DNA of 64,000 nucleotides, from positions 1-64,000 of the IMG/VR virus record IMGVR_UViG_3300012203_000001; one strand, written 5' to 3'. How positions within the stretch are numbered: position 1 is the stretch's first letter; the number at the start of each line of letters is the position of its first letter. The notes beneath the pieces are model-generated. The model was not told where the DNA came from, ran no database searches, and worked only from the letters and a program-made list of their open reading frames with translations. Source of the stretch: a virus. The translations under genes were made by a program, and so were the position numbers. Below, piece after piece: positions 2,237-48,197 of the stretch.

Positions 2237-2422
2237 ATGGAGCCAACTATTTATCAGGTCACGAAACTTGCCCGGACACCGGAGGAACGCGACCTAATCA
2301 TCGCGATGACCTCCAAAACATCGATGCAAAAGCTGATCGCTAAATTGTCGGAGCAATACCTCGGCGATCGGTATCGCGTGCCGGCGTTTCAACACAAAAT
2401 TTTACCGGGATTTGAGAGATGA
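2237..2422 (+). CDS. small hypothetical protein preceding VirB2
   Basis: This 61-residue helical protein has a good ribosome-binding site (AGAGGAAACGTT-ATG). Its TGA overlaps the VirB2 start as ATGA, so the two are translationally coupled. No motif recognised. Confidence 0.55.
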   Translation: MEPTIYQVTKLARTPEERDLIIAMTSKTSMQKLIAKLSEQYLGDRYRVPAFQHKILPGFER

Positions 2423-2685
2423 ACTACGAATTTACCTTATTCATGGCGGCTGGGCTCGGCCAAGCGTTAGGTGCTGCGGGCGGGATTATTCAAGGCATTG
2501 GTCTGATCGCCGTGTTTGGAGGCCTTATCAGTGCTGCGGTGAGTGCGTTAAGCGAACGCCATTTGGCCGGTGTAAAGACTTCGCTTGTGATCGCTGCGAT
2601 TGGCGGGATGGCGTGGTTGATTGCTACTGCGTTCTTTACTGCTGGAGGGGCGAACGTCAACATCACGTTGGGCGGCGTCAACTAA
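2419..2685 (+). CDS. virB2: VirB2/TrbC-like conjugative pilin subunit
   Basis: The 88-residue protein has two hydrophobic helices: about residues 20-42, and 54-74 including SLVIAAIGGMAWLIATAFF. A Gly/Ala-rich turn opens it, and there is a polar loop containing SERHLAGVKT. This is the VirB2/TrbC pilin architecture. It is followed directly by a VirB3-like and, after two small genes, a VirB4-like gene, the standard T4SS order. The N-terminus is unusually short for a cleavable leader, so processing is uncertain. Confidence 0.8.
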   Translation: MNYEFTLFMAAGLGQALGAAGGIIQGIGLIAVFGGLISAAVSALSERHLAGVKTSLVIAAIGGMAWLIATAFFTAGGANVNITLGGVN

Positions 2686-3047
2686 TGTCGCTGGAGATGC
2701 ACGCCAACGACAATTCGCGCGAAGGTCGTCCAGGTATTTGGATTTTCCAAGGGCGCGCCATTGTGTTTCTTGTCATCGGCGTTGGCGTGTTCGTCGCGCT
2801 CTTTCGAATTCTCGCATCGATTGATGTCGATTGGCCGGTGAATATCGGCGTTAGCCTTTTGCCGTTGGCCGGAATTACTTTGATCATCCACTTGTTCGTG
2901 AACGGCAAGCCGCCGAGTTACGCCGGCGATCAACTTCTGTTTTTGTTATGGCGTTTCCGTACTCGGATGTATCTGGCCGGCGCTCTAGAACGGCCACCGG
3001 AGCTGTGGGTTAGAGATCGCAAACCAACGCACCCGAAAGAATTATGA
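2685..3047 (+). CDS. virB3: VirB3-like T4SS inner-membrane protein
   Basis: The start overlaps the VirB2 stop as TAATG. The 120-residue product has two adjacent membrane helices (about residues 25-47 and 52-68) and a basic cytoplasmic tail ending KPTHPKEL. Size, topology and position between pilin and ATPase fit VirB3, which works with VirB4 in pilus assembly at the inner membrane. The call rests on context more than on a sequence motif. Confidence 0.7.
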   Translation: MSLEMHANDNSREGRPGIWIFQGRAIVFLVIGVGVFVALFRILASIDVDWPVNIGVSLLPLAGITLIIHLFVNGKPPSYAGDQLLFLLWRFRTRMYLAGALERPPELWVRDRKPTHPKEL

Positions 3048-3233: not shown

Positions 3234-3731
3234 GTGCCGAAGATGATAACACAGGAACGTTTAAAGGAATTGTTTAATTTAGATCCTGAAACAGGGGTTA
3301 TGTATTGGAATGTACGGCCCGGAAGCCGCGGCGGACCAAAAATAGGTGATGTTGCAGGCTGTTTAAGTAGGGGTTATTGGAGAATTAAAATAGGAACAAA
3401 ACTGTATCAGCGCAGCCACCTAGTCTTTCTGTTTTATACAGGAATAGCAGCGAAACAACTGGATCACAGAAACAGAATCAAGATAGACGATAGGCCAGAT
3501 AATCTTCGTACGGCGACAACTACGGAGAACGCCAGGAATGCCATATGGTCTAAAGCTTCGTGTCTTCCTAAAGGGGTGACTTGGCGTGATAGACTTAATC
3601 CTTTTCGGGCGGATATCCAAGTTAATGGGTGTCCGATTTATCTAGGTTCGTTCCCTGCGGCCGAATTAGCTCATGCTGCCTACTGCGCTGCTGCTGAAAG
3701 GCACTTTGGAGAATTCGCTCGTTTTGCTTAA
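3234..3731 (+). CDS. homing-type HNH endonuclease with AP2-like DNA-binding domain
   Basis: The 165-residue protein shows an HNH_3-type core (RSHLVFLFYTG, then LDHRNRIKIDDRPDNLR near residues 80-100) and a C-terminal AP2-like region (KGVTWRDRLNPFRADIQVNG...YLGSFPAAELAHAAY). This domain pair is typical of phage-borne homing endonucleases. GTG 3234 is the likely start; ATG 3243 is an alternative. It splits the VirB3-VirB4 pair, which normally adjoin, so it is most likely a free-standing mobile gene inserted into the transfer operon. Its local AT content is higher than that of its neighbours. Confidence 0.8.
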   Translation: MPKMITQERLKELFNLDPETGVMYWNVRPGSRGGPKIGDVAGCLSRGYWRIKIGTKLYQRSHLVFLFYTGIAAKQLDHRNRIKIDDRPDNLRTATTTENARNAIWSKASCLPKGVTWRDRLNPFRADIQVNGCPIYLGSFPAAELAHAAYCAAAERHFGEFARFA

Positions 3732-3740
3732 TTTACTGTC

Positions 3741-6311
3741 ATGAGTTTAATTATTCCAGACGGTTATTTTTTCCAAGACCACCTTATATGGGGCGATTTA
3801 GGAAAAGGTGGAATTTTATCAAGGGGATATGAAGTCCAGTTTCCAGATTTAAGCGCTAGCGACGATGATGTTTATACTTCTCTTGAAACTGATATCCGAC
3901 TGATGCTCGGGAGCCTTAGGGCTGATGAACAACTTCAGTTAATATACTTTACATCGAGTGATTTTAGCGAGCCACTAAACCGCTACGAATCGGAGACAGT
4001 TAAGTCACTGATTGCGATTTGCAGCGACGTTCGTGCCGAGTTAGTCCAGCGGTTCAGGCAACGGATGGCTACCGAGACGTTGATTCAAGGCGAAACGCGA
4101 CTTTGGGTTTCCAGTAAGCTTCCAGGTTTTGCGAAGGAGGATGGGAGAACGGTCCGCGGATTTGACCAGGTTTCTAAGGTTGTATCACGATCATTTGAAC
4201 AGCGCTCATTGTTCTGGAATCTTCTTCTAAGTAGTTACGGTGGCAGCGTTAAAGCGCTGGACAATATCGGGCACTACGATGAGCTTTTAAAGTTCTGGTC
4301 TCCGGGGCAATCACGTTACCCACGGTGCGGCGATTTGGATTGGTTACGTCCAGTGTCAGATCTTTGTCGCTTTAGTGACATTGCACCGCGGATGGCGCCT
4401 GAGTGCGGCTTTTATTTGGATGGCCAAGTTGTCGGCGTAATGGTCTTTAAGACGATGCCTCGATCGACGTGGATGAAGACGATGGAGGTGTTCTCATCAC
4501 TGACTATTCCAGGGCTGCGTGTGATCGTGAACATGCAACCTCTACCAATCGATAATGAGATAAGGTATGAGGAGGAACGTTTCTCGAAACTCGTCAGTAA
4601 TATAGATCCAAAGTCTCCAAATCTTCAGTCGGAAGTAGGATTAGATAAGCATAGAGATCGTATGCGCCGCCTGCTGAGCAATCAAACCGTTCCTTTTATG
4701 GCGCAAATTATTGTAATTGCGCATGATCGGACGAGGGATGGTCTCGATGGAAAAATGGAAGCGATTCGCGCGGCGATCGGGAAAAGTGGATGCGAAACGT
4801 ATCAACCTTTGGTTCCGACTTCGGTTATTGCGTTTTTTAACTGTGCAGCCATGGGCTTCGGTCCGTGGGTTAGATATCGTGATTTTTATCACAAGATAGA
4901 TGACCTCAACCTTGCAAACATGTGGTTAGCGGCTGGGTCGACGCCTCGAGCAGATCTCGAAGATGCAACTTGGATCACTGACGGACACCTCAACAACCTT
5001 ATAGGTGGCCGTTGTTTCATCGGGGCGCAGCCGCTCCACATGCTTGTCGCGGCGACAACCGGGGCTGGTAAGAGTGTGCTCTTGCAAACGTTGGTGCTAC
5101 AGACGGCGCCACAATTCAAGTTTATCGTCGTGATCGATGATGGGCTTAGCTGGATGACGACTTGTCAAAAGCTCGACCCAACGCGCCAGCCTATCATCGT
5201 GCGCTCGAACGGCGACCAAACATTCAACGTGTTCGATACTAGGCGTCAACCCCTATCGAATGAGCACTTGGCGAGCGCAACGGCGCTCGTGCATTTGCTC
5301 GTGGGCCAACACGCAGATGGCGACAAGGACAAGCTTAGGCACGCGGTGATCGCGGAGACGATTTCTGATGTTTATCGGTCGGCATTCAGGCGGTGGCGCA
5401 AGAATAATCCGCAAGCGCACTATGATCTGTGCGTTAAGTATGGTGAAGAACAGGAAGGCGAAGATCTAGTGATGGACAATTCGTTTGCGCAATGGACGCC
5501 GGATATGTTCCCTACCCTGTTTGATCTGCAGGATGAGTTGCACGCGGAGGCAACCCAAAAAGGGCCACACCAAGATTTGTGCGCGACGCTTGCCAGTCTG
5601 TTGCGGCCGTGGCTTAGGGACGGGATTTATGGTCCGATCGTTGATGGCGCGAGCAACGTTGATCTCGGTAGTACGGATATCTCGGAATCCGATCCGCTCA
5701 AAGTCGTTCACTTCGAGCTTGGTGAGATGGGTGAGAGCGAATCCGAGCTCCGCGCTGTGGTCGGCTTTTTGATCACTAATGAGGTGCGTAACCATATCCA
5801 GGGAATGCCGCGCGGATTGCGCAAACAAGTGGTGATCGAGGAAATGGTGTCCTTCCTTAAAATTCCAAACGCCGAGGAGATCATTGTCGATTACTGGCAG
5901 AAGATGCGCAAATATAATGCGCAGATGGTTGCCGTATTCCAGAACTATTTAACGCTTTTGGAAGCGAGCCCGAAAGTAGCCAAGGCGATCGTTTCGAATT
6001 CATCGGCCATGTTGCTGTTGCGTAATCATAACAGACAAGACTTGGAGGCATTAAGCGAATTTTTGGCACGTCCTTTGCCGGAAGTGATCAAAGATCACAT
6101 CACGCGGTTCCCGAAACCGAATGAGTTCACAAATCGGGACGAAGCGTATGCCGGCTTTGTGTATGTGCAGCTCGGTAACGAGGAGCCTCGATATACGGTC
6201 GGGCGCAATTACATAAGCCAACTAGTCGAGGATATTACCAGTTCTTCCGGCGATGATTTTGAGCGGAAAAAACAGGAGTTAAATAAAATAGTCAGGATGG
6301 ACGCGGCATGA
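3741..6311 (+). CDS. virB4: VirB4-like T4SS ATPase
   Basis: The 856-residue protein is the size of VirB4/TrbE ATPases, which power pilus biogenesis and transfer at the cytoplasmic side of the inner membrane. The Walker A motif ATTGAGKS places the catalytic lysine at about residue 444, and a Walker B-like segment QVVIEEMVSF follows near residue 700. The N-terminal half has no nucleotide motif, as usual for the family. A downstream block (YWQKMRKYNAQMVAVFQNY) matches the region following Walker B in VirB4 proteins. ATG 3741 follows the HNH gene by nine bases. Confidence 0.88.
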   Translation: MSLIIPDGYFFQDHLIWGDLGKGGILSRGYEVQFPDLSASDDDVYTSLETDIRLMLGSLRADEQLQLIYFTSSDFSEPLNRYESETVKSLIAICSDVRAELVQRFRQRMATETLIQGETRLWVSSKLPGFAKEDGRTVRGFDQVSKVVSRSFEQRSLFWNLLLSSYGGSVKALDNIGHYDELLKFWSPGQSRYPRCGDLDWLRPVSDLCRFSDIAPRMAPECGFYLDGQVVGVMVFKTMPRSTWMKTMEVFSSLTIPGLRVIVNMQPLPIDNEIRYEEERFSKLVSNIDPKSPNLQSEVGLDKHRDRMRRLLSNQTVPFMAQIIVIAHDRTRDGLDGKMEAIRAAIGKSGCETYQPLVPTSVIAFFNCAAMGFGPWVRYRDFYHKIDDLNLANMWLAAGSTPRADLEDATWITDGHLNNLIGGRCFIGAQPLHMLVAATTGAGKSVLLQTLVLQTAPQFKFIVVIDDGLSWMTTCQKLDPTRQPIIVRSNGDQTFNVFDTRRQPLSNEHLASATALVHLLVGQHADGDKDKLRHAVIAETISDVYRSAFRRWRKNNPQAHYDLCVKYGEEQEGEDLVMDNSFAQWTPDMFPTLFDLQDELHAEATQKGPHQDLCATLASLLRPWLRDGIYGPIVDGASNVDLGSTDISESDPLKVVHFELGEMGESESELRAVVGFLITNEVRNHIQGMPRGLRKQVVIEEMVSFLKIPNAEEIIVDYWQKMRKYNAQMVAVFQNYLTLLEASPKVAKAIVSNSSAMLLLRNHNRQDLEALSEFLARPLPEVIKDHITRFPKPNEFTNRDEAYAGFVYVQLGNEEPRYTVGRNYISQLVEDITSSSGDDFERKKQELNKIVRMDAA

Positions 6312-6323: not shown

Positions 6324-6680
6324 ATGAACGTTAACGATGTCAAAGTGGTAGGCAACCTTGTAACAAAGCCCGAGGTGCAGTTTACGCCTAAGGGCGTGCC
6401 GGTGACGACTGTTGCCGTAGGCGTAAATGAGACGATGCCAGGTCAAGAAAAGAAGCAAGTAACGACATTTTTGGATGTTCGTGTCTGGGGCCAGAGTGCC
6501 GAGAACCTGGCTAGGCTTGCAGCTAAAGGTCAAGAGATTTTTGTCGAGGGAGCGTTGCGCCAGGAGCAATGGCAAGACAAAGAGACTGGTAAACCGCGCT
6601 CAAAGCTTTTTTTGAATGCCAGTAGTTGGCAGTTTACGCAACGCAAACCGGCGACGCCGAATCAAGGGATGGAACGATGA
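6324..6680 (+). CDS. ssb: single-stranded DNA-binding protein (OB fold, no acidic tail)
   Basis: The 118-residue protein follows the SSB pattern: VKVVGNLVTKPEV, a variable strand, TTFLDVRVWGQSAENLARLAAKGQEIFVEGALRQEQW and LFLNASSWQF. It stops soon after the OB fold and lacks the acidic DDDIPF-type tail that recruits partners. Conjugative elements often carry an SSB that coats incoming strands. Here it lies between VirB4 and VirB5 rather than in a leading region. A second protein with an SSB-like tail is encoded at 58130-58636. Confidence 0.88.
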   Translation: MNVNDVKVVGNLVTKPEVQFTPKGVPVTTVAVGVNETMPGQEKKQVTTFLDVRVWGQSAENLARLAAKGQEIFVEGALRQEQWQDKETGKPRSKLFLNASSWQFTQRKPATPNQGMER

Positions 6681-7057
6681 AAGCGACATTGCTCATCGTT
6701 GTGGTTGCGGTTGCCGGGTGCGCAAATCATCCGTTGCCGAACAGCCAAACCGCAAGTGAACGCTTTTCAACGCTGGGCGGTGGTGAACGCCGAATTGCTC
6801 GCGAGTTCTACGATTTTGGATCTGGCGATGCCATTAAGCGGCTTTTTTGGGCACAGCGCAGGATGCAAGAACAGGTCCACGGCGACACCTCGGACGCGCA
6901 ACCGACACGATTGCAGCGGAAGTACGTGGTGTTACCGGTGCCGGAACACATTGAGCCTGATGGCACGATTAAGGAAGCAAACAACCAAGTGGTTGAGGTT
7001 GTGCAACTCTGGTCGGTTACGCGGAGTCATGGTCGAAACCTTTTTATTGTAAAATGA
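6677..7057 (+). CDS. T4SS-associated lipoprotein, possible VirB7 equivalent
   Basis: The ATG overlaps the ssb stop (ATGA). The signal sequence ends in a lipobox VAGC, so the mature protein should be lipidated at Cys 14. The remaining part of this 126-residue protein is hydrophilic. VirB7 proteins are lipoproteins that anchor the VirB9-VirB10 outer-membrane core, but they are usually shorter. The assignment rests on position and lipidation. Confidence 0.6.
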   Translation: MKATLLIVVVAVAGCANHPLPNSQTASERFSTLGGGERRIAREFYDFGSGDAIKRLFWAQRRMQEQVHGDTSDAQPTRLQRKYVVLPVPEHIEPDGTIKEANNQVVEVVQLWSVTRSHGRNLFIVK

Positions 7058-7875
7058 AAACACAAATCATAGCGGTGAGCATTTTGGCTGGGCTGGTGTT
7101 TAGCGCTCGTGCCACGATCATAACTCATGACCCGTATAGCATGGCGCAGAACGCCGTCCATGAAGTGATCAACATCGTGAAGTATGCAGGGACGCAAATC
7201 AAAACAACCGAGACGGCGCTCAACACTCTCAGGACATACGAGCAGCAAGTTGTACAACTTGCGCGGCTCGGCAACCCGGCTGCGCTACGTGCGCTTCCAG
7301 GTGTTAGCACGGTGGCTGAACTTTACGGTACTGGCCAACAACTCATGTACAATTACCAGAGTTGGCAGCAGTACCTAAACCCGCAACGATACCAGGGCGA
7401 CATGAACTACATTTTAAGTTCATACCGGCAACCGAACTGGCAAGGATATAGCACATATTCCGGCTACAATGTTGCACCAAGCCAAGGTCTTTACCAGTTT
7501 GACACAGCGCGGTACAACATCGCGCAGGCCGGGAGCGATGAGCTGAAACAACTAGAACAGCAACGGCAACGACTTGAACAACAACGGGACGTAGCGATGC
7601 AATCATTGCAATCGGCATCAACTGATGCGCAGGTCAAAAAGTATCATGGCGTTTTGGACGGGTTAAATGGCGCTCTTGCCGAGATTGGTGCCCGGGCAAA
7701 CGAGGTGGCGCACCGCGTGGCGATCAAAGCGCAGCAGATTAATGCCGGACAACAAGTTTATAGCGCTTCGCAGGCTGAGCAACGCGCGGCTGCGGCTTAT
7801 AAAGGTATTGACACCGATCTTCAAGCGTTGCCGGCCGACAATTTCAGAGAAATGCATTTATGGAGCGGTAGATAA
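7054..7875 (+). CDS. virB5: VirB5/TrbJ-like periplasmic T4SS protein
   Basis: The 273-residue protein has a signal peptide ending near ARA (about residue 20), followed by a helical domain (HEVINIVKYAGTQIKTTETALNTLRTYEQQ) resembling TrbJ/VirB5, a minor pilus component. A long Gln-rich coiled coil spans about residues 155-250. The C-terminus carries LQALPADNFRE, a motif repeated at the end of the next protein. It is coupled on both sides by short overlaps and lies directly upstream of the VirB6-like gene, as in other T4SS operons. Confidence 0.72.
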   Translation: MKTQIIAVSILAGLVFSARATIITHDPYSMAQNAVHEVINIVKYAGTQIKTTETALNTLRTYEQQVVQLARLGNPAALRALPGVSTVAELYGTGQQLMYNYQSWQQYLNPQRYQGDMNYILSSYRQPNWQGYSTYSGYNVAPSQGLYQFDTARYNIAQAGSDELKQLEQQRQRLEQQRDVAMQSLQSASTDAQVKKYHGVLDGLNGALAEIGARANEVAHRVAIKAQQINAGQQVYSASQAEQRAAAAYKGIDTDLQALPADNFREMHLWSGR

Positions 7876-8174
7876 TGAAAATACACATGTTTACGTTGTA
7901 TGGTTTGCTTTTTGTGGCGTTAGTCGCCGAGATCGAACTGCGCAGCGAACTCAAATCAGTTAAAGCGCAACTTATTGCGTACAAGTCTGATGCCGATTCG
8001 TCTGCTGCGGCTGCCGTTAAACAATTCGAAAAGGATGTATTCGCGCGGATTAACGGTGAAGAGGCCGCGTTAAAGCAACGCGCAGCACAAGAGGCATCAG
8101 CCGCAAGTAATGACTTGCGAGCGTTGCCGACAGATAATTTCCGATCCGGACCGAAGCCGTGGAAGGATAACTAA
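7875..8174 (+). CDS. small exported protein sharing the VirB5-like C-terminal motif
   Basis: The start overlaps the upstream stop as TAATG. The 99-residue product has one N-terminal hydrophobic segment (LYGLLFVALVAEI) and a helical region, then ends with DLRALPTDNFRSG, closely resembling DLQALPADNFREM of the preceding protein. It may be a truncated duplicate or a partner that shares a docking motif. In some T4SS operons a small gene at this place encodes an entry-exclusion protein, which is an alternative. Confidence 0.5.
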   Translation: MKIHMFTLYGLLFVALVAEIELRSELKSVKAQLIAYKSDADSSAAAAVKQFEKDVFARINGEEAALKQRAAQEASAASNDLRALPTDNFRSGPKPWKDN

Positions 8175-9575
8175 ATGCTAGCGGTCGATTTCTTGCAATT
8201 GATGCCAGGGTTCGAGACTGGGGCGAGTACACTCCATAATATTCTGATCGGGGTAACGCTCGTGCTGTCGTTCTGCGGACTGCTTTTGCTGGTCAGTCAG
8301 GGATTACGCGAGAAATCTACGCATAACATTTTACCGACTCTGGTGCGTTTGGCTGTGATCGTCATCATGGTTGGCAGTCTTGGCGCTTGGGGGAATCTGT
8401 TAGTAGATGGCGTCAACGATGTTGTGGCGCAGATGGGGTTAAATGGCATTGGTGGCGGAATCTTCGCGGCCTATCGAAACGCGGTAGCTCGCAAGTTTGG
8501 CAGTGACGGCGCAGCGCAGCAAGGCGGCCAACAGCAACAAGCGCCACAACGAAGCTTGTATTCAAATGGCGGATTAACGCCGTCAGCGAGCGGAATTCAA
8601 TTGAACCATTACGGGTATGAGCAACCGGGCTCACCAAATTACGACAAGGCTTCAGCTGATGGCCGTGGCGCGTTTACGTTTGATACCGAGCAAGGAAGCT
8701 TGGTGCCGCTACAATCAGCGGCGCTTTCGAGCGATGTCGTTCAGGCGTACAACTTGCAACCAGGCCAAGCGTTTACGGTTAGCGCCGGCGGCCAGACCTA
8801 TAATTTGATTTATGCGGACAAGACGGCCGATTATATTCAAGGCTCGGTTGATATTTATGATCCGCACCAGCAATTAGGCAGCAATCAGCTTGTAGGCCTA
8901 ACATCAATGCAAGACGGCCCTGTGGAGCAAGGCGGCGACGGGGGTCCGCTCGGCGGCTGGATTTCCAAGCTTGGCGACTCGCTCACGGTCGGGTTGTTGT
9001 ACCCGCTTGTGCATCTCCTAAGTTTGATCGCGCTCGGAATCATGTACTTGATGCAAGCAGTTCAGCAAATTTTGTATACAGTCGAAATTGCCGTTTCCCC
9101 GATTTTTATCGGGATGATGATGATCCCGCGATTGGTCGGGATCGCTACTCGGTTCTTTTGCAGTCTTGTGTCGATCTGTTTATGGGCGCTCGGGTGGGCG
9201 ATATGCGATTTACTGACGCGTGCATTGATCGGGTTCGCCATTAACCCGACAAACAATCTCGCATTGAGCGCGTTCTCTGGGGCTTCAATGATGCTTGGGT
9301 ACTGGGTGTTGCTCGCGGTCTGGGTGATTGGGAGCTCGTTCGTTGCGCCTCTTATTATTTCTGGTCTTATCGTTGGTGGTGGTGCCGGGGTATTGGCACC
9401 TGTATTCGGTGCGACGGTTGGTGCAATGGCCGGGATGGCGGCAGGAGGTGGTCGGCAAGCTGCGAGTGCAGCGGTCGGGGTTGCTGCGGCTCCAATATCG
9501 GTAGCGTCATCGAGCGCAATGAATGCGTTTCAAAGTTTTGCCAGGAGGCCGAAAAGTAATACGATCGGAAAATAG
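8175..9575 (+). CDS. virB6: VirB6/TrbL-like polytopic T4SS channel protein
   Basis: The 466-residue protein has two N-terminal membrane helices (about residues 22-44 and 55-75), a large polar periplasmic insert (about 110-255) rich in Gln, Gly and Ser, and a cluster of four or five membrane helices (about 275-430). VirB6/TrbL proteins form the inner-membrane path for the DNA substrate, and this layout fits. The C-terminus is Gly/Ala-rich, as in TrbL. The next gene follows a 47-base gap containing a candidate promoter. Confidence 0.8.
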   Translation: MLAVDFLQLMPGFETGASTLHNILIGVTLVLSFCGLLLLVSQGLREKSTHNILPTLVRLAVIVIMVGSLGAWGNLLVDGVNDVVAQMGLNGIGGGIFAAYRNAVARKFGSDGAAQQGGQQQQAPQRSLYSNGGLTPSASGIQLNHYGYEQPGSPNYDKASADGRGAFTFDTEQGSLVPLQSAALSSDVVQAYNLQPGQAFTVSAGGQTYNLIYADKTADYIQGSVDIYDPHQQLGSNQLVGLTSMQDGPVEQGGDGGPLGGWISKLGDSLTVGLLYPLVHLLSLIALGIMYLMQAVQQILYTVEIAVSPIFIGMMMIPRLVGIATRFFCSLVSICLWALGWAICDLLTRALIGFAINPTNNLALSAFSGASMMLGYWVLLAVWVIGSSFVAPLIISGLIVGGGAGVLAPVFGATVGAMAGMAAGGGRQAASAAVGVAAAPISVASSSAMNAFQSFARRPKSNTIGK

Positions 9576-9592
9576 CGCCTTTTTTTGTTGTA

Positions 9593-9610
9593 AAACGTTT
9601 CCTCTAGAAT
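9593..9610 (+). promoter_or_regulatory. candidate promoter with AAACGTTT operator-like palindrome
   Basis: AAACGTTT (9593-9600) is followed by CCTC and TAGAAT (9605-9610), the latter a good -10-like hexamer 12 bases before ATG 9623. The arrangement repeats that upstream of 1893. This is the only non-overlapping junction between VirB2 and VirB10 apart from the HNH insertion, so a secondary promoter is reasonable. Confidence 0.45.
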
Positions 9611-9622
9611 ACTCTCACGCTT

Positions 9623-9916
9623 ATGGACCACGCGCATCAATTTCACCGAGCTGGCGACGAGCACATATGGCTTAACCCGGATGGCTTGTTTTTCGCGGCC
9701 TTATTTGTGTGGTCAATGCTTGGGCTGTGGCTCTATTTGGATCTTCGCCATAAGGAGCAAGTTTGCGGTGTGGTTCTATTATTCATCGCAGGGCCGGCTG
9801 CGTGGCTAACGGCTATTTGGAATGCAGTTCACCGACATGTCGTTGAGCAACGGTTAGCGCGTAAACGGGCCATCATACGGCGCCGTGAACATCGGGAGCA
9901 CTGGGGAAGGAATTGA
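9623..9916 (+). CDS. small inner-membrane protein of the T4SS operon
   Basis: The 97-residue protein has two membrane helices (about residues 22-42 and 47-66) and a strongly basic C-terminus (RLARKRAIIRRREHREHWGRN), so the tail should be cytoplasmic. Its stop overlaps the TTG start of the VirB8-like gene. No family recognised. Confidence 0.6.
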   Translation: MDHAHQFHRAGDEHIWLNPDGLFFAALFVWSMLGLWLYLDLRHKEQVCGVVLLFIAGPAAWLTAIWNAVHRHVVEQRLARKRAIIRRREHREHWGRN

Positions 9917-10506: not shown

Positions 10507-10604
10507 TGCGTGGTGTTATTATCCTGTTTCTTTGTGCGGCTGCGGCCATTGCGAGTGCGCTCTGGTTTTGGATTCCTCTATTCAAGATGCTTTACCACTT
10601 TTAA
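10503..10604 (+). CDS. 33-residue single-pass membrane micro-protein
   Basis: An ATG overlapping the virB8 stop opens a frame encoding MMRGVIILFLCAAAAIASAL and then a short aromatic tail. It is nearly all hydrophobic, so a single membrane helix is expected. Tight coupling and position between VirB8 and VirB9 favour a real micro-protein. Confidence 0.5.
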   Translation: MMRGVIILFLCAAAAIASALWFWIPLFKMLYHF

Positions 10605-10607
10605 AAA

Positions 10608-12700: not shown

Positions 12701-12701
12701 C

Positions 12702-14017: not shown

Positions 14018-14250
14018 AAGACTACGAGAAATACGAGCAGGAACTTCGTGCGGAGTTTGTTTCCAAACATCCGAATGCTACGCCTGAACAGTTAATAGAG
14101 AACTATCGCGAAAATACCGGATTGGTAATGGCTTTCATCGCACAGAAGAACGTGGACGCGATTGATCGCGATAGGATTGAGCGGATCAATGATTGGTTGG
14201 GTAGCGCTTGGCGCGGTAGCCGTGGCGTGGTGGAGGAAATTGAGCGATGA
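14014..14250 (+). CDS. small hypothetical helical protein
   Basis: The 78-residue hydrophilic protein is coupled by ATGA to both neighbours. It contains many charged helices and has no recognised motif. The HPNATPEQLIENYR stretch resembles short modules in phage and plasmid hypothetical proteins. Confidence 0.5.
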   Translation: MKDYEKYEQELRAEFVSKHPNATPEQLIENYRENTGLVMAFIAQKNVDAIDRDRIERINDWLGSAWRGSRGVVEEIER

Positions 14251-23893: not shown

Positions 23894-23900
23894 CCAAGCG

Positions 23901-26757: not shown

Positions 26758-26759
26758 AA

Positions 26760-27043: not shown

Positions 27044-27061
27044 CCCCGAAAAGGAAACGGG

Positions 27062-27316: not shown

Positions 27317-27322
27317 TTGGAA

Positions 27323-39255: not shown

Positions 39256-42200
39256 GCACGGCTACAAATAAGACAACCAAGCAGCGTGATCCGTACGGGA
39301 TAAAGATACCGCAAACGAACACGAATCAGGAAGTTATCCAGATTCCATACGTGGCAGGTCTCGTGAAGTTACCGGTGATGTGGTGTGGTGGTCCGTATGG
39401 ATTGCGTGTTGTCGATATCACGCAAAAGCAGGGATCTGGCAAAGGTGCAACGACATCGACGGTAGGTCACAAGTACTACGCTAATTTGATTGGTATATTA
39501 TGTATCGGTCCAGTGGATCGGATTCGAGAGATAATTATAAATAATTCGCTTGTTTGGGTTGGAAGTATTTATAGGTCAGAGAGCCCTAGTTATGCGCAAA
39601 TTGGGTTACCTAGTGACGATGGACAGATCCGCATTTATTGGGGAGCGTCAACTGATCCTGCGCCTAGTTGGTTTGGAACAAGTGAACCTTACGGACATCC
39701 TGGGTATCGGTGGCGTTGTCGAATTGAGTTCTTGCAACTCCTTTACGGCGCCAGCGACACGACGCAGGTACCGAACGTAGAGGTTGTTTTAGAGAGGCAT
39801 CCATCTTGTGCACAGTTTGATCAGTACTTTGGTCCAGGTAATCACGCGCTTTACATTGAGGAACTAGGAGTCAGCCCGTTTGGTTGTATTTACGAATGGA
39901 TGTTCCATCCTGTCTACGGTGCCGGGATACCGGATAATACGGATTTTACCAATTGGAGGAATGCAATTGCCGATACTCATCTCAATTATATAATGATTAA
40001 CCCGAAGGTTGATGCGGCTGAGACCTTCAAAAGCTTGATTCAAAAAGCGCTCCAATATTTTGATGGTTGGATCAGGATGTCGCCAACTGGACAGTTGCAG
40101 ATTGGCCGGTTTGCGCATGTGAATGCTGTTCCTGTCACGACATTGAACGATCATGATTTTCTTGGTGAGCCGAAGATTACAACCAAGATGCTCGATGACA
40201 CGCTTAATCAGGCGATCGTCAAGTTCGTAAATCAGTACAACTATTTTAAAGATGACGCCGCGATTTATAATGACTTCGGCAACCAGTTAGTCACTGGCTA
40301 CATTAAGTTTGTCAATTACGATCGACCGTGGATCTGTAATCCTGATTTAGCGTTTCAAGCCGCTTCGGTGCTCGGGATGCTTTACGCTAACCCGATCATT
40401 TCCGGCACGATAACGGTTTCGAAGGAGTACGTAGCAGGAGTTAATCCTGGCGATCTTATCCAGATCGATTCGGATACGTACAATCTAGCTGGCCTATTCC
40501 GAGTCAAAACGATGACCTTATCGGAAGCTACTAAATGGACATGCGAAGTCGAGATAGAACAGGAACGCGGTACGTTTCCGACGCTTTACGCAGATACTGC
40601 CGCGCCATACCCAACAAAACCAGAGATTGAAGCGCTTGATATAACGTTGGCGCGTATAGTGGAACTTCCGCCTGGGCTCGGAAAATCTGTTTACAGTTTA
40701 ATGGTAACGATTTTAGCGGAACGCGAAGATCCATTAATGCAAGGGTTTATTCCCTGGTTTACCCAAGATCCGATCGGAAGCCAGGTGTACGATGATACGA
40801 ATATTTCGTGTCGATTCGCAGTTGGAGCGAAACTAATGGCCGAGACGGGGATCACAGGTGAAATAGATACAGCAGTTGGGTTTTGGCTTAAGGCTAATAA
40901 TTTTGACGGGGCGCTGATTCAATCGCAACCGGATCTAGCGAGAGATAATTTTGAGTGGTTGATCTTTATCGGGAACGAGATCATGTCACTTGGCCAAGTG
41001 GTCGCTTACGGCGCAAATCTTTACCACGTATTTACACGCCGTGGCTGTTTCGGAACAACGATTGTTGAGCATTACACCAACGAGCAAGTGTGGTTTGTTC
41101 AACGCGCGAATATGCCTATGGTTACGCATTCAACATGGAAAAATGGCGATACATGGTATTTCAAGCTGCAAGGGTTTAATCAAACCCACATTTACGATCT
41201 CAGTTTGTCATCGATTTTTTCCTATACGTTTCGTGGTGATGCTGGGTCAAGCGGGTTGCTAGGGCCAAGTAATTTCATTGTTGGCACATCTGGAAACGCC
41301 GTCTTATTCAACTGGAAAGATGATCCGTCGCCAGGCGTCGTCGGCTACGAGATCAGGTACGGAGCTGTGAATGGCGTTTGGTCAAACGCTCGGGTGTCAG
41401 TCACTAAGGTGACAAATAGCCGGAACGTGCAGCTTACCAATATCCCGCCCAACGTCTGGAAATTTTACTTAGCGTCAATGGATATGTTCGGATCGTACTC
41501 GATCCCGGTAACGTATATCCTGACGATCCCTGCGTTTACTTACATTCTGGCGGAAAAGAATTATGGGCCGGTTCAGCACGGTCTTGATACCGGAATTGAG
41601 CCTACCCTGGATTGGGACGTGGGAGCCGGTACGATTCTCACAAATTGCCTAGTGCATCCGACATCGTACGGGTTATTGCCGCAAGATACGCATATGGCTA
41701 GTTATGTGCCGCCGGGCGGCACCGGGTTTGAGCTCTTTGACAATTTTGTTAATGGATGGCCTGCTGTATGCACTGCTGAGTTTCCTGTGATCGATTCGTT
41801 GGGGAGCGGTTCAAGTATTCGCAACTCAGAGATCGTGAACGAATATTTGATAGGTCTGTTAAATCAAGGGATCGCCGGCGAAGATTTCTTGATCTCGTTA
41901 AACCCGACCTGGGCGCAAGCAACGATTGTTAACGGCGTCGTGCATCCGACTTGTTACTGCGTGATTCCGACAACAATTCATAATGCGAGCTATGTGCCAA
42001 CAGGCGGCACCGGGTTTGAACTCTTTGACAATTTCATTTTCGATGTTAAACCAACGACATCGATCAGCTATATACAGGATGTAAACGAACCGTATCCGTG
42101 GGATGCAACACTGAACGCTGTCTGCAAATTTGGGTACTCGAACGGGTCTGTTTCCCAAACGCTCTCAATCAGTTGGTCGAGCGATCGTATTACTTGGAAT

Positions 42201-42746
42201 CAATTGACAAGTGGCCCGGGATCGTTGGCGGCGAGTTACATCGCGCGCTACGTAAAGTTTAATCTTTCGCTCGATAACACGCATCCGGTCGGGTTCGTGG
42301 ATGCGATGAGCGGCGAAATCATTGCTGGATCATCCAAATATTGGACATCGATCCTGGCGCAGATAAAGACGAGCTCGGACAATATCACGTTTGGTAATTG
42401 GATCGAGGTATCATCTAACTTTGTTTCTGACGAGTACATTAAGCCGCGTGTTACATGGAACCCGACTAGCGGAAAATGGCCGGTCTCAGTGTCGTCCCTT
42501 TGGCTCTTGCTTGATTCAGTCCAGAATACGCAATCGGATTTCAGTGTATCGGTTCCGTCCGGTGGCGTAACGATCACTTTCCCGATTCCGTTCCGCCAAA
42601 AAGTGAGTGTGACGGTGACCACAGTATCCGGGTCATCTGGGTACGCTGTAGTTACCAGTTATACGCTGACGGGGTTTACGGTTCAGGTGTTTAATGCCGG
42701 GTCGCCTATCGCCGGAACAATTAATTGGCACGCAATAGGAATTTAA
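39243..42746 (+). CDS. J-like tail tip / host-specificity protein
   Basis: The 1167-residue protein matches the phage tail-tip (J) layout: an N-terminal hub domain, a central Phage-tail_3-like segment (VDAAETFKSLIQKALQYFDGWIRMSPTGQLQIGRF, about residues 255-290), a fibronectin III-like domain (about 675-765) and variable C-terminal domains. Two copies of a block ending GGTGFELFDNF occur about 97 residues apart (41631-41750 and 41922-42039). Such proteins bind the host receptor. The start overlaps the NlpC gene by 13 bases. Confidence 0.82.
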   Translation: MSSVSTATNKTTKQRDPYGIKIPQTNTNQEVIQIPYVAGLVKLPVMWCGGPYGLRVVDITQKQGSGKGATTSTVGHKYYANLIGILCIGPVDRIREIIINNSLVWVGSIYRSESPSYAQIGLPSDDGQIRIYWGASTDPAPSWFGTSEPYGHPGYRWRCRIEFLQLLYGASDTTQVPNVEVVLERHPSCAQFDQYFGPGNHALYIEELGVSPFGCIYEWMFHPVYGAGIPDNTDFTNWRNAIADTHLNYIMINPKVDAAETFKSLIQKALQYFDGWIRMSPTGQLQIGRFAHVNAVPVTTLNDHDFLGEPKITTKMLDDTLNQAIVKFVNQYNYFKDDAAIYNDFGNQLVTGYIKFVNYDRPWICNPDLAFQAASVLGMLYANPIISGTITVSKEYVAGVNPGDLIQIDSDTYNLAGLFRVKTMTLSEATKWTCEVEIEQERGTFPTLYADTAAPYPTKPEIEALDITLARIVELPPGLGKSVYSLMVTILAEREDPLMQGFIPWFTQDPIGSQVYDDTNISCRFAVGAKLMAETGITGEIDTAVGFWLKANNFDGALIQSQPDLARDNFEWLIFIGNEIMSLGQVVAYGANLYHVFTRRGCFGTTIVEHYTNEQVWFVQRANMPMVTHSTWKNGDTWYFKLQGFNQTHIYDLSLSSIFSYTFRGDAGSSGLLGPSNFIVGTSGNAVLFNWKDDPSPGVVGYEIRYGAVNGVWSNARVSVTKVTNSRNVQLTNIPPNVWKFYLASMDMFGSYSIPVTYILTIPAFTYILAEKNYGPVQHGLDTGIEPTLDWDVGAGTILTNCLVHPTSYGLLPQDTHMASYVPPGGTGFELFDNFVNGWPAVCTAEFPVIDSLGSGSSIRNSEIVNEYLIGLLNQGIAGEDFLISLNPTWAQATIVNGVVHPTCYCVIPTTIHNASYVPTGGTGFELFDNFIFDVKPTTSISYIQDVNEPYPWDATLNAVCKFGYSNGSVSQTLSISWSSDRITWNQLTSGPGSLAASYIARYVKFNLSLDNTHPVGFVDAMSGEIIAGSSKYWTSILAQIKTSSDNITFGNWIEVSSNFVSDEYIKPRVTWNPTSGKWPVSVSSLWLLLDSVQNTQSDFSVSVPSGGVTITFPIPFRQKVSVTVTTVSGSSGYAVVTSYTLTGFTVQVFNAGSPIAGTINWHAIGI

Positions 42747-42747
42747 T

Positions 42748-43575
42748 ATGCCAGCAGTCAATCAATCGCTTGTCCCTTATAATCCTCTTGGTCGCCCTAA
42801 TTATGGTGACGGAACGTCGTATACAAACTCAGTTGATGCATGCTTAGCGATTTCGGGTCAGCTCGCCGGTGCGCTTGCGGTGGTGCCGAACTCGCCGGCG
42901 GCGATGTCTGTGTTGGTAGATATCGGGTACACTATTCCTAGGCCAGGGCAAACCGTACCGGCGTGGTTGAATAATGGCGCTGCACCGCAAACGGTATCGT
43001 TAGCTGCGCCTGGATCAAATTCGTATTACGCGACGATCTATTGGAATCTGTTGACGGCAACGGCAGGTGCTATATACGGTGCGCCGGCAACAAGCCCGAC
43101 TCCGATAATACCTGATGGCAGTTACCAAGTTCCGTTAGCTTTTGTTTTAATAGCTAGCACGGATACTACAATAATTGCAAGTAAAATTGTAGATGCTCGG
43201 TTCGTGATACCAGATAAACCTCTGACGGCGTCTCTTGGGCTCGTTACAACAAATCAGATAGTGAATTGTCAGGGTGCAAGCATTGTCCATGTAAACATGG
43301 TATTAAACGCTTATGTGACGTTGACCTTAAATAATTTACGATACGGTGTCCCGATATTTATTACTGCAACAAATGTAAATGCCGCTTCTGTGGTTTTAAA
43401 GTTAGGAGCAACTACGCCAAGTGGTTTAACGTATGCAATTAACGGTAAAATCGCCGGGACAAACGCAACACCAACAGATATGGCTGCAACTGGCGCAACC
43501 CTAACAACTGGCGATGTAATTTTACTTATTGGAAGTATAGTGCCAGGTCAGGCGATAATGTTTGCAATTTGTTAG
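42748..43575 (+). CDS. tail fibre or baseplate-associated protein
   Basis: The 275-residue, Ala/Thr/Val-rich protein is mostly beta-strand and follows the J-like gene. Low complexity and lack of charged residues agree with a trimeric fibre or an accessory tip protein. No known domain recognised. Confidence 0.55.
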   Translation: MPAVNQSLVPYNPLGRPNYGDGTSYTNSVDACLAISGQLAGALAVVPNSPAAMSVLVDIGYTIPRPGQTVPAWLNNGAAPQTVSLAAPGSNSYYATIYWNLLTATAGAIYGAPATSPTPIIPDGSYQVPLAFVLIASTDTTIIASKIVDARFVIPDKPLTASLGLVTTNQIVNCQGASIVHVNMVLNAYVTLTLNNLRYGVPIFITATNVNAASVVLKLGATTPSGLTYAINGKIAGTNATPTDMAATGATLTTGDVILLIGSIVPGQAIMFAIC

Positions 43576-43586
43576 TGAATAACTCA

Positions 43587-43883
43587 ATGGCTGCAATAGT
43601 CCAAATCGATTCGGATCTTGCCAATGCAATCGCGGGAATTGTTTTAGCGGCTGCAAACACCGGTCTCATTGATGCGGTCACCAGTGATCAATATCGTGCG
43701 GCGTTAATGCCTGCATCGCAGACGATCGTGCGCAAGTTCACCTGGATCATTCCGGCCGTAACCCAGACCGCGCAGACGCCCGGTGTCGTGGCGCTCTGCG
43801 ATGACGGCAACATTTACGAGACGACCGATGTCACCGCGACGCCGGTCGTGTGGGTCGCGAAAGGAGGGGCGCCGCAAACATGA
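43587..43883 (+). CDS. small tail-associated protein
   Basis: The 98-residue protein begins MAAIVQIDSDLANAIAGIV. GTG 43575, overlapping the upstream stop, is an alternative start. Position among tail genes is the only guide to function. Confidence 0.5.
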   Translation: MAAIVQIDSDLANAIAGIVLAAANTGLIDAVTSDQYRAALMPASQTIVRKFTWIIPAVTQTAQTPGVVALCDDGNIYETTDVTATPVVWVAKGGAPQT

Positions 43884-44239
43884 AACTCGTTATCTACCGC
43901 GATAACAATAACACGTTGCAAGTCCAGGTGTTTCATGCGGATGGGTCACCTTGTAATCTTTTCGGGTGCCAAATCCTGATGGCGTTTAAGAGCGATCAAT
44001 CGTTACCGAATTCTGCTGCGTTGATCATTAAAGGAACAACGCCGCCTTATTCAGGAATAACGATTAGTAATGTACCAAACAACACATTTAATGCGGCAAT
44101 CCTGACGGCAGATACTCAAGGGTTACCGGACACCATCGAGGTGTTTACTGATATTTTAATAGTCGATCCGATCGGTAACGCGTTTACGGTCGCGAACCCA
44201 ACAACCGTGGAAATCAAAGCTAATATAACAAGGAGATAA
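43880..44239 (+). CDS. small beta-rich tail protein (BppU-like N-domain?)
   Basis: The 119-residue protein begins MKLVIYRDNNNTLQVQVFHADGSP and looks like a single Ig-like or baseplate-upper-protein-type domain. It is coupled by ATGA and is preceded by AAGGAGG. Family call is tentative. Confidence 0.5.
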   Translation: MKLVIYRDNNNTLQVQVFHADGSPCNLFGCQILMAFKSDQSLPNSAALIIKGTTPPYSGITISNVPNNTFNAAILTADTQGLPDTIEVFTDILIVDPIGNAFTVANPTTVEIKANITRR

Positions 44240-44245
44240 TGTTTT

Positions 44246-44674
44246 ATGCCTAGTCAAGAATCTACTTATTTTGTGAACCTGCATGAAGATGTTTGGTTCG
44301 GTAAAAATCAAACGATGCCTACGATCCCAGCTAACTGGTACGTGTGCATGTTCTCGACCACGCCAGGGTTAGGCGATTTGGGCGGTGTTGAACTTACTGG
44401 ATCTGGGTACGTTCGTCTTGTGATCCCGAATACAACATCCTATTTTTCGGCTGCTTCCGCGCGTGTAAAAGTCGGGGCCGGCGGCTCGTATCCTCTCGCT
44501 TGGTTTACGGCTAGCGGTACACTTGGGCCGGTTGTGGCTACCGGACTAAGGGACGCGAGCTCTGGTGGCAACCTGATCTTGCTCAACGATTATGCATCTG
44601 GCAATCAGCAGACGATCTATTCCGGTAACGTGATAACGTTCAATGCGGCGGATTTCTCGTTAACGATTAATTAA
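44246..44674 (+). CDS. tail protein of unknown role
   Basis: The 142-residue protein begins with VNLHEDVWFGKNQTMPTIPANWYVCMFSTTP and is beta-rich throughout. This pattern occurs in phage proteins found beside fibres and may form a head-binding or trimer module. Function not established. Confidence 0.55.
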   Translation: MPSQESTYFVNLHEDVWFGKNQTMPTIPANWYVCMFSTTPGLGDLGGVELTGSGYVRLVIPNTTSYFSAASARVKVGAGGSYPLAWFTASGTLGPVVATGLRDASSGGNLILLNDYASGNQQTIYSGNVITFNAADFSLTIN

Positions 44675-44702
44675 TAAGTATGCCAGGATGTAGTTAGACG
44701 TT

Positions 44703-47700
44703 ATGATTGCAATCCAAGCCAAGGCTCCCGGTAGCGCTAACACGGCAACGCCGAATGCAACGTTCGGCGCTGCCGTAACTACTGGCAACGCCATTATTGT
44801 TTGGGTTAGCTGGTTTACGGCCTCAGGATCGGTAACCAGCGTTACAGACAACTTAGGAAACACCTATACGTCAATGGGGGCCCGAGTTCAGAGCGGTAAT
44901 ACGGGCGAACTTTGGGCTGCATTCAATGTCACCGGGGGAACAATTACCGTTACAGGCCATCTATCGTCATCGCAGACTTCGGCTCTTTGCGTGATATTGG
45001 AGGTTACAGGTATTTCGTCATCACAAGACGGATATGCAACTGCACATGCAAGCTCAAATTTAGTTAATGCCGGCAGCATAACTACCACAAACGCAAACGA
45101 TTTCCTTGTGCAATTCATGCGAGGTGGGACTCTCGCTAATATTGACCCTGGATGGTCAAACCAACCTTCTGATGGCAACGGCATGTTCGGCCAATACAAA
45201 GTCGTTGGCGCTACCGGCACTTATTCAGGCAAAATTAATCTTGCTGCATCTACAACCTGGGTATCTGCAATAGCCGCATTCAAGGCCAATCTGCCAACGG
45301 CATCGGTGCAGGCCGCAACATCGGTAACATCCAACTCAGCGACTCTGAATGGAACAATCGTGTCCTCGGCTGCGGGCAATTGCGTTATTGCGGGATTCAA
45401 TTTCGGGCTGACAACGTCGTATGGAGCTACCGTTCAAAACACTGGAAGCTTTGGCACCGGAACGTTCTCTGTGGCTATCACTGGTTTACAGCCAAATACC
45501 ACGTATCACGTCCAGGCATTTGCTGAAAATGTCGGAGGATACGGCCTTTCTGCCGATACCACGTTCACCACGACTGCCGGCTCTGGGCCGCCATCCCCTC
45601 CTACATACAGCAAGGGAGAAGTTCTATTTAACAGTACGCAGCTAGGGACCGCGGGACAAGACGTAACCGGAACCAAGGCCAGCCTTATAGATGCCGATAA
45701 ATCCACCTATTGGCAAACAACCATAACCGATAATTTTGATTGGGTCGGCGTAGATTGTGGAACGGCCACAAATCTAACTAGGGTTAGAATTTCCCCCATG
45801 AACGAATGCCTTGGGATACAAGTTCAAGGGAGCAATGATTCTACATTTGCAACTGGCGCTGCGGTTCTGGCTACGATTACATCCCCTCCACCACCCGGAC
45901 AATTGCAGAAGGAATACGCCATCAGCATACCGTACAACTGGACGTTTCGATACTACCGAATATGGTGCAACTATGCGCGCATGTTTTTGGCCGATCTAGA
46001 CTTTATCGGCAATTACACCTCCGGTGTCACAGCGGCAGCGGTTCAACCTGACATGACCCCACCAGGAGGATACTACGATAAGCCGATCCGGGTAAGGCTA
46101 TCTTGCTTGACGACCGACGCTAATATCTATTACACAACGGACAACTCGACTCCAACCACAAGCTCAACACTATATACGGTTCCGTTTGTGGCGCCAGCTA
46201 GCGCCAACACCAACGTTAGGGCGATAGCCACCAGCGCAAGTTTAACAAATAGCAGGGTGTCTCCAAATATCGAAGGTGGACTAACGGCCGACTACAAGCC
46301 GCCTTGGACATTCTTTATACCTTCTCAATCTATCCCCGGTAAAAATATTTTTGACGTTAATCGAGGATACAGGCTCAATAGACTCGAAGGGTCAATTTTG
46401 AAAGATCCGGTAAGCGGTTATTGGTACGCTTATGGAACATGTGCAGACGGAGGGCCAGGCAGCCCATTTACAGGGGAATCAGTCTACAGATCAGCGGACC
46501 TGATAAACTGGGAATGGAGAGGCATGATTATGGGTCCCGCGTCATTAGGTTATGATAGCAGTCTGATTCATCAGGATTTTCCTAACCTAACTCTGCACAG
46601 GACGCAGGTGCTCTATAATGCCGCTAATAATAATTATGTAGCATGGACGGCAGATTATCAAAGTGGCGCAATCTTAAGATATCATCGGTCCTGGACATCT
46701 AGTAGCCCGGATGGTCCATTCACTCTTGTTACCACGTTTAATAGCGGTGTTGGTGGTCGCGCGGGAACAGGATTGGATTTTGGCAGTTTTGTTGATCCAA
46801 CTAACGGCCAGCCATACTTAATATGGGTAAATAATGGCAGTGGCAGTGGAACTAGTATGTCGTTCGCAAAGCTGAACGCTGCGTACACGGATGTCCAGAC
46901 CGGCGCGGGGAACATGTACACTATTGATTATGGCGTAAATCAACGGGAAGCGCCTACTATGTTTTACCGGAACGGTACGTATTTTCTGATGTTTACTGAC
47001 CAAACTGGCGGCGCTTACACTCATGGTTATTATACAACGGCATCTTCTCCTCTAGGGCCGTGGGATGGAACACAAACAAATCCGTTTCAAACATCCACTG
47101 TTGAAGATAAAACTTTAGGATACCATTCCCAATGTAGCCAAGTTATAAAGATTCCCGGCCGAGACGACGGAACCGGAAAAGGCGCTTTTCTTTATGACGG
47201 ATCGGGCCATTCAATTCCGACAGCTACAGGACTGAACACCCACCTTTGGCTCCCTATCGTGTTTCCAACCGATAGCACGATGACGATTTCGTGGGATACA
47301 TATCTCCCTAACTGGACATTGGACGGCATTTTCCCAACCGTGAGCGGCGCACCCTTAGCGGCAACAGGACTATCGGCATCGTGGTCAGGACTAAATGCGT
47401 CAATTGCCTGGGCAAATAATGAGACAGCTCCTAAAAAGATCTATATAGATCGAGCTGATGATTCTGCTTTTACAATAGACGTTGAATCAGAAGTATTGGC
47501 TGACGGAACCACATCATTTATCGACACAATGGTTGGGTTCCACGCCACTTTATACTATCGGATTAGAACCGTAAATTCCAGTGGGACAACGAATAGCGCA
47601 TCCGTATCCTTATCACCGCCAATGACGTTGTTATCGATTACGGATGCAACTATTGCAGCGATAGGCTTAGAAGATAATCGGCATTTGCCGGTTATTATTT

Positions 47701-48197
47701 CAGATACAAGCATGGTGGTGCTAGGTGTAGAAAACAAGCGGCGTATGGGATTGTCGATCTTGGGTACCAGTGCTGTTGTTTTGCATGCCGAGATTAATCC
47801 ACATTTCGCTGTGATGGTCGCGGATGGTAGCGTAGTGTTTCTAGGATTAGAAGACAACCGACATTTACCATTAGGTATTACGGATTCAAGCAGTGTCGTT
47901 CTTGGTATAAGAGACAATCGCCATCTACCTGTTATTATTTCGGACACTAGCTCGGTTGTGTTAGGTAGAGAAATCAATCAACATTTCGCATTTACGGTAG
48001 TTGACGGAAGCGTTGTGCTTCTAGGCTTGGAAGACAATAGGAGGTTTCCTTTAGCTATGTCTGACGCGAGCATTGTTCTACTCCATCCCGAGATCGTTGT
48101 GCGTACGCCATTAACGATTGTGGATACTACCATTGTCGGCCTTTGGCTAAACGGGCCGCGCGCCGGAATGAAGGCGGCGATAAAGCTTTTGACGTAA
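44703..48197 (+). CDS. multidomain tail spike with GH43-like beta-propeller
   Basis: The 1164-residue protein contains, in order: a beta domain (1-200), a fibronectin III domain (about 200-295, GLQPNTTYHVQAFAENVGG), a discoidin/F5-8C-like domain (about 305-440), a chitobiase-type domain (about 450-525, PIRVRLSCLTTDANIYYTTD), a five-bladed GH43-like domain (about 545-880, EGSILKDPVSGYWYAYGT), another FN3 (about 885-975) and eight or nine 20-residue repeats to the end. It probably binds and trims surface polysaccharide. Catalytic residues were not verified. Confidence 0.75.
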   Translation: MIAIQAKAPGSANTATPNATFGAAVTTGNAIIVWVSWFTASGSVTSVTDNLGNTYTSMGARVQSGNTGELWAAFNVTGGTITVTGHLSSSQTSALCVILEVTGISSSQDGYATAHASSNLVNAGSITTTNANDFLVQFMRGGTLANIDPGWSNQPSDGNGMFGQYKVVGATGTYSGKINLAASTTWVSAIAAFKANLPTASVQAATSVTSNSATLNGTIVSSAAGNCVIAGFNFGLTTSYGATVQNTGSFGTGTFSVAITGLQPNTTYHVQAFAENVGGYGLSADTTFTTTAGSGPPSPPTYSKGEVLFNSTQLGTAGQDVTGTKASLIDADKSTYWQTTITDNFDWVGVDCGTATNLTRVRISPMNECLGIQVQGSNDSTFATGAAVLATITSPPPPGQLQKEYAISIPYNWTFRYYRIWCNYARMFLADLDFIGNYTSGVTAAAVQPDMTPPGGYYDKPIRVRLSCLTTDANIYYTTDNSTPTTSSTLYTVPFVAPASANTNVRAIATSASLTNSRVSPNIEGGLTADYKPPWTFFIPSQSIPGKNIFDVNRGYRLNRLEGSILKDPVSGYWYAYGTCADGGPGSPFTGESVYRSADLINWEWRGMIMGPASLGYDSSLIHQDFPNLTLHRTQVLYNAANNNYVAWTADYQSGAILRYHRSWTSSSPDGPFTLVTTFNSGVGGRAGTGLDFGSFVDPTNGQPYLIWVNNGSGSGTSMSFAKLNAAYTDVQTGAGNMYTIDYGVNQREAPTMFYRNGTYFLMFTDQTGGAYTHGYYTTASSPLGPWDGTQTNPFQTSTVEDKTLGYHSQCSQVIKIPGRDDGTGKGAFLYDGSGHSIPTATGLNTHLWLPIVFPTDSTMTISWDTYLPNWTLDGIFPTVSGAPLAATGLSASWSGLNASIAWANNETAPKKIYIDRADDSAFTIDVESEVLADGTTSFIDTMVGFHATLYYRIRTVNSSGTTNSASVSLSPPMTLLSITDATIAAIGLEDNRHLPVIISDTSMVVLGVENKRRMGLSILGTSAVVLHAEINPHFAVMVADGSVVFLGLEDNRHLPLGITDSSSVVLGIRDNRHLPVIISDTSSVVLGREINQHFAFTVVDGSVVLLGLEDNRRFPLAMSDASIVLLHPEIVVRTPLTIVDTTIVGLWLNGPRAGMKAAIKLLT
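47628..48155 (+). repeat. tandem 60-base repeat encoding a 20-residue motif
   Basis: Eight to nine units follow the pattern ISDTSxVVLGxExNRHLPV, with two alternating subtypes (NRHLP- and NxHFA-bearing). The strict 20-residue period at the C-terminus of the spike suggests a beta-solenoid or a trimerising stalk. Units have diverged, so the array is not recent. Confidence 0.7.

Follow-up and report, generated by a model that had tools for sequence, protein, structure and literature searches.

The stretch of DNA analysed here, referred to as the window, covers positions 1-64,000 of an IMG/VR record of 65,084 bp (IMGVR_UViG_3300012203_000001; G000) from an uncultured virus of bacteria. Its genes for a tailed virion are accompanied by a conjugation module of ~21.9 kb (97-21981, + strand), which lies between the genes for the small and large terminase subunits (terS and terL). 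The module encodes a nearly complete type IV secretion system (T4SS) set: relaxase, coupling protein, VirB4, VirB10 and probable VirB2, 3, 5, 6, 8 and 9. A second species with both gene sets (G001; IMGVR_UViG_3300012926_000036; 66,519 bp) serves for comparison throughout.

Genes of the two halves

The transfer genes are on the + strand, and a small helix-turn-helix (HTH) regulator (1559-1792, - strand; 67% identity to G001) is divergent from them. A probable VirB2 pilin (2419-2685) is assigned by size, hydrophobic topology and position (65% in G001), and a probable VirB3 (2685-3047) by an hhalign match (E 4.5e-4) to the gene adjoining virB4 on the Opitutaceae plasmid CP007054. The VirB4 ATPase (3741-6311) matches PF19044 (P-loop_TraG) at E 1.5e-12, and its top NCBIfam model is F-type TraC (E 1.6e-22); besides this TraC-like score, other F-specific genes were not seen. 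There follow a single-strand DNA-binding protein (6324-6680; Pfam SSB, E 1e-23), a lipoprotein that is possibly VirB7 (6699-7057; lipobox-like start; tblastn E 2.5e-4 to the syntenic CP007054 gene), a probable VirB5 (7054-7875; position and size; 69% in G001), VirB6 (8175-9575; hhalign probability 93%, E 3e-7 to the syntenic CP007054 gene) and a probable VirB8 (9913-10506; position and an N-terminal membrane helix). The order VirB3-VirB4-lipoprotein-VirB6 is the same as on CP007054. The best Foldseek match of the probable VirB9 (10608-11564) is the F-plasmid T4SS outer-membrane core complex (7spb, E 1.9e-3), found with the beta domain of a low-confidence AlphaFold2 model (mean predicted local distance difference test score 42) and hence weak; the corresponding VirB8 model (mean 38) was unusable. 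VirB10 (11561-12700) is recognised by Pfam TrbI (E 4e-12). In the mating-pair-formation set as a whole, VirB10 and VirB6 are supported, VirB3 and VirB9 weakly so, and VirB2, VirB5 and VirB8 are placed by position, size and topology.

Further downstream are a Clp-like AAA+ ATPase (14528-15451; AAA_2, E 3.5e-25; 75% in G001) and the type IV coupling protein VirD4/TraG (15627-17108; PF12696 (TraG-D_C), E 9e-10; NF045973 (VirD4-like), E 7e-13; 79% in G001). A conserved non-coding block of 107 bp (18396-18502; 78% identity to G001, with unconserved flanking spacer) is a candidate for the origin of transfer (oriT) or the relaxase promoter. The MOBF relaxase-helicase (18535-21336; 933 amino acids; Pfam TrwC, E 7e-31; NCBIfam MobF, E 2e-23) has a TraI-type helicase. 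Its His173, His189, His191, Tyr19, Tyr29, Tyr30 and Walker A motif are kept in both G000 and G001, and the Walker motifs of the module ATPases are also kept in G001. We take the three histidines to be metal-binding, the roles of histidines and tyrosines being assigned from what is known of TrwC. The stretch before the terminase, described earlier as a gap of 645 bases, contains a small conserved open reading frame (ORF; 21272-21658). Short repeats near 21.69 kb were considered as recombination scars and found no support, and scans of the two module borders for promoters and terminators gave sites no more numerous than in shuffled sequence.

The virion genes are likewise on the + strand. The window opens with the 3' end of terS (1-96); the whole gene (record 64416-65057) runs across the closure of the circle, encodes an HTH domain, and has a C-terminus that matches TerS of G001 and of the relatives G003 and G004. 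The large terminase (21982-23376) has Walker A/B and nuclease motifs, a large-terminase match in PDB (E 1e-4) and 39% identity to an Akkermansia phage TerL. It is followed by a GH46 lysozyme-fold enzyme, probably the endolysin (23901-24602; PF01374, E 2e-18), the portal (24982-26757; Portal_Mu, E 5e-65), a MuF head morphogenesis protein (27317-28099; PF04233, E 8e-7), the head maturation protease (29056-30366; phrog_328, E 3e-23), the major head protein (30777-31664; phrog_1005, E 2e-21), the major tail protein (32626-33393; phrog_807, E 5e-11), the tape measure protein (34098-36635; phrog_10093, phrog_2854) and tail tip, tail and fibre genes (36632-48197; phrog_778, E 3e-38; phrog_1101, E 4e-42; Gp53-like; Gp80). 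A head-tail adaptor gene was also identified. The genes by which Caudoviricetes are recognised (terminase, portal, HK97-type capsid and tail) are all present.

Insertion point, conservation and closure

Relatives that do not carry the T4SS, found with terminase probes, identify the site of the module. G004 has overlapping terS and terL genes, with the same recombinase immediately upstream. The TerL of G003 is 79% identical, and in that genome only a homing endonuclease stands between terS and terL. A small HTH gene overlaps terL in L082, L089 and L091, and a terS-terL overlap is annotated in the Akkermansia phages Chantilly and Chambord. In G000 and G001 the conjugation module parts the two genes. 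Because terS adjoins terL in relatives without it, the module can be placed as an insertion into a phage of ~39-43 kb, precisely at the terS-terL boundary. Searches for MOBF and TraG P-loop genes found none in any relative except G001, and searches for close relatives with the coupling protein, relaxase and VirB4 gave matches only in G001 and two near-identical fragments. Subtraction of the module leaves about 43 kb of G000; the complete relatives are a 39.3 kb circle with a related TerL and a more distant one of 36.8 kb. The TerL tree places both T4SS phages within a well-supported clade (100/100) that contains T4SS-free phages. It pairs G003 with G000 (87/85), whereas the portal tree pairs G000 with G001 (90/95), a conflict that may reflect either a single gain of the module or a gain together with loss or recombination.

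In their main nucleotide blocks G000 and G001 are about 64-76% identical, and both halves are collinear except for one fibre gene that has moved. This fibre-like gene lies at the end of the tail module in the window (44703-48197) and between terL and portal in G001 (39279-41441); it appears to be a relocated or swapped receptor-binding gene. Amino acid identity is 57-79% for T4SS genes and 49-80% for virion genes. Synonymous sites are near saturation (proportion of synonymous differences, pS, 0.69-0.84), and the nonsynonymous proportion (pN) is 0.15-0.31 in transfer genes and 0.13-0.36 in virion genes. The low pN relative to pS in both sets indicates purifying selection on both halves since the two species split. 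Since G001 shares the gene order and both halves are under such selection, the association is old and maintained, and not a misassembly. A preliminary description of this DNA had argued that the join is neither recent nor accidental and had called for a search for the same junction elsewhere. The search yielded G001, with both halves on one genome in the same order, and this order, the purifying selection and the insertion point seen in T4SS-free relatives bear the argument out. The reasons originally offered for it fare less well: of the two genes taken as "phage-type", at 14247 and 15448, one is a small ORF of unknown function and the other the Clp-like AAA+ ATPase, and a shared coding strand is not telling.

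The first 123 bp of G000 are identical to its last 123 bp, so that the record closes into a circle of 64,961 bp. A contig from a separate metagenome assembly (G002; IMGVR_UViG_3300012927_000244; 13,873 bp), 99.97-100% identical to G000, reaches from window position 58,005, past the closure, to 6,916, taking in terS and the beginning of the transfer operon. Physical direct terminal repeats were set aside as the source of the 123 bp repeat because a distant relative also has 123 bp and another 127 bp, like assembler overlaps. The circular assembly is equally compatible with an episome, a replicating form or permuted virion DNA. Another contig of the same phage, G017, matches window 6,936-16,486 at 100% and then passes mid-frame into a TonB-receptor-like gene, and is chimeric. 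In the chimeric contig L075 (IMGVR_UViG_3300028536_000118, 9552-10457), the change from phage sequence to a TonB-receptor-like gene falls within the coupling-protein gene.

Integration, host and accessory genes

A tyrosine recombinase (62294-63220, + strand, true start probably about 62384; Phage_int_SAM_1, E 1e-7; Phage_integrase, E 3e-4), with homologs in G001 and G004, adjoins a predicted attachment site, attP (62276-62321, - strand). The latter is 46 bp from the 3' half of a tRNA-Pro(GGG), with the loop and T-arm sequence of the tRNA. The G001 attP is the same tRNA-Pro fragment, and its T stem shows compensatory changes, which would be expected if every attP copy matched the tRNA of its own host. 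The recombinase next to attP marks the phage as temperate and integrating. No plasmid replication initiator or partition genes were seen among the proteins scanned, which covered part of the ORFs, and ParB_N occurs only within a methyltransferase. An integrative temperate phage with a module like that of an integrative conjugative element (ICE) is a better description of the element than a phage-plasmid. The HTH regulator divergent from the transfer operon and a second one (50064-50321, - strand) resemble regulators of relatives; the second is 50% identical to a regulator of G003, which lacks the T4SS. This hints at a regulator family common to the phage and the transfer operon.

The host probably belongs to Verrucomicrobiota, since Akkermansia phages supply the three best named TerL matches and VirB4 matched just two plasmids, both in Opitutaceae. 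Relaxase matches include Planctomycetes. The attP sequence was uninformative, since matches to it, in actinobacterial replicons, were of only 82%. When 84,980 cellular genomes were probed with the terminase, no relative turned up, and a motif scan gave two contigs that had no other homologs; neither a prophage copy nor a host genome was obtained.

The early genes include a recombination module of exonuclease, ssDNA-binding protein and Sak4 (56894-59555, - strand; phrog_69, phrog_124), which are also clustered in Chantilly, a DnaB-like helicase (59849-61270, + strand; phrog_19, E 5e-22), a ParB-N/DNA methyltransferase (63299-64000 and on to record 64582, + strand; PF01555, E 2e-18), a resolvase and DNA methyltransferases. 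Many genes of HNH, endonuclease VII and GIY-YIG type (window 3234-3731, 12919-13389, 52937-53413 and 54379-54753; G001 48108-48659; G003 22268-22900) are likely free-standing homing endonucleases. Some of them stand at different places in each relative, for example directly upstream of the G001 relaxase and between terS and terL of G003. Between the portal and MuF genes lies a tRNA-like element (window 26974-27047, + strand; near 34,613 in G001 and 19,334 in G004) with a perfect 7 bp acceptor stem, a canonical T arm, a short D arm and an anticodon loop of 9-10 nt. Compensatory change is seen in 11 of its 19 pairs across the three phages, and neither ARAGORN nor Rfam recognised it. An autotransporter beta-domain protein (51177-52490; PF03797, E 2e-22) is possibly a surface conversion or exclusion protein; G004 encodes a larger homolog (23895-27095) downstream of its terL.

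Two predicted routes of exit

We think it probable that a temperate siphophage lineage gained a MOBF-type conjugation module between terS and terL and has kept both gene sets since before the two species split, as a phage-ICE hybrid able to leave the cell by virion or by conjugation. Several features expected of an ICE are present: relaxase with intact predicted catalytic residues, coupling protein and VirB4, together with an integrase and attachment site predicted from sequence. Dual transfer is suggested by the intact catalytic residues and the conserved genes. The phage would integrate at tRNA-Pro(GGG) by its tyrosine recombinase, whose sequence is present and whose activity is presumed. 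Once excised, the circle could enter the lytic cycle and be packaged by TerS/TerL into a long-tailed virion. Alternatively, the relaxase would nick oriT and hand the DNA to the coupling protein, a single strand would be exported through the VirB channel into a neighbouring cell, and the transferred strand would recircularise in the recipient and integrate again. That the phage both packages itself as a virus and transfers itself as ssDNA from the same integrated state, with regulation choosing the exit, and so forms a categorically new class of mobile element, is a proposal we regard as evenly balanced.

Several points weigh against the hybrid. The chief doubt is whether the capsid can hold 65 kb: with complete relatives of 39.3 and 36.8 kb, either the capsid grew to take about 1.6 times their length or virions carry partial genomes. 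The preliminary description rightly saw a conjugation machine and a tailed virion on one contiguous genome, as G001 and the closure-crossing contig agree, but "complete" overstated it. VirB1 was not seen among the proteins scanned, and a search for VirB11 gave a sole PF00437 match, which lies within VirB4. F-type systems also do without VirB11. For oriT there is the candidate block alone, and VirB2, VirB5 and VirB8 are without homology support. Only two species with this arrangement are known, every record of the element is metagenome-derived, and the chimeric G017 shows that assembly errors occur in such data.

If a 65 kb circle no longer fits the capsid, conjugation would now be the working route and the virion genes rarely active or a remnant, the element being in effect an ICE built inside a prophage. 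The complete T4SS-free relatives are of 37-39 kb and the module adds about 22 kb, which fits this view. We nevertheless find it unlikely, because the genes for TerL, portal, protease and capsid rank among those under strongest constraint in the genome (pN 0.135-0.177) and the tail and fibre reading frames are open in G000 and G001 alike. The T4SS could instead serve the virus otherwise than in genome transfer, through receptor display on the pilus, phage exclusion or protein export to neighbours during lysogeny. The missing VirB1, VirB11 and identified oriT would be in keeping with such a use, but a pilus or exporter would have no need of a conserved relaxase-helicase with intact catalytic residues or of the coupling protein, and we hold this explanation to be less likely still. 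The two halves could also have been joined by misassembly, or by the single entry of a conjugative element into a prophage in decay. G017 and the metagenomic origin of all records might speak for this, but it is very improbable given that G001, at about 70% nucleotide identity, is arranged alike, that the junctions are seen in separate contigs and that both halves are under purifying selection.

The hybrid resembles several known systems in part. Chantilly (ON453895) and Chambord (ON453894) share with G000 the Sak4-exonuclease-RusA-methylase-DnaB genes followed by terS-terL, endolysin, portal, protease and capsid (TerL 34-39%, portal 33%). However, in these records of 31-37 kb a relaxase, coupling protein or T4SS is neither annotated nor matched. 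MOBF ICEs and MOBF plasmids of Planctomycetes, Runella and Opitutaceae (CP007054, with its syntenic VirB block) have related transfer proteins (relaxase 27-28%, coupling protein about 34%, VirB4 23%), but no phage of such kind is known on them, and G000 adds a full tailed virion. P1-type phage-plasmids also combine viral and plasmid-like features in one element. Some P1-derived plasmids gained mob or oriT only, mostly after loss of phage genes (PMC10879196, PMC12977533), whereas in G000 the T4SS stands beside intact virion genes and vertical inheritance is apparently by integration. Transfer of the Phi1207.3 prophage of Streptococcus pyogenes meets the operational definition of conjugation; the text of the paper mentions neither a relaxase nor a type IV system and describes the mechanism as unknown (PMC4260502). 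Unlike G000, this prophage has a Gram-positive host, and the two are unrelated. A search of 50,697 phage records gave nothing for VirB4 at E 0.01 and a single weak, partial match for the relaxase. No comparable genome was found in these records or in the open literature searched; subscription papers and preprints may hold an earlier description.

Mobile elements are classed by how they leave the cell, as virions or by conjugation, and recent work describes conversion between the two with one of them lost. A lineage that keeps both routes intact under selection would break this division, and would be a new class of element if both routes are shown to work. Such an element could reach hosts that have no receptor for the phage. 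The empty terS-terL sites, the two occupied species and attP provide a clean case in which to ask when it pays to carry two transfer systems, and how a capsid accommodates a gain of 22 kb.

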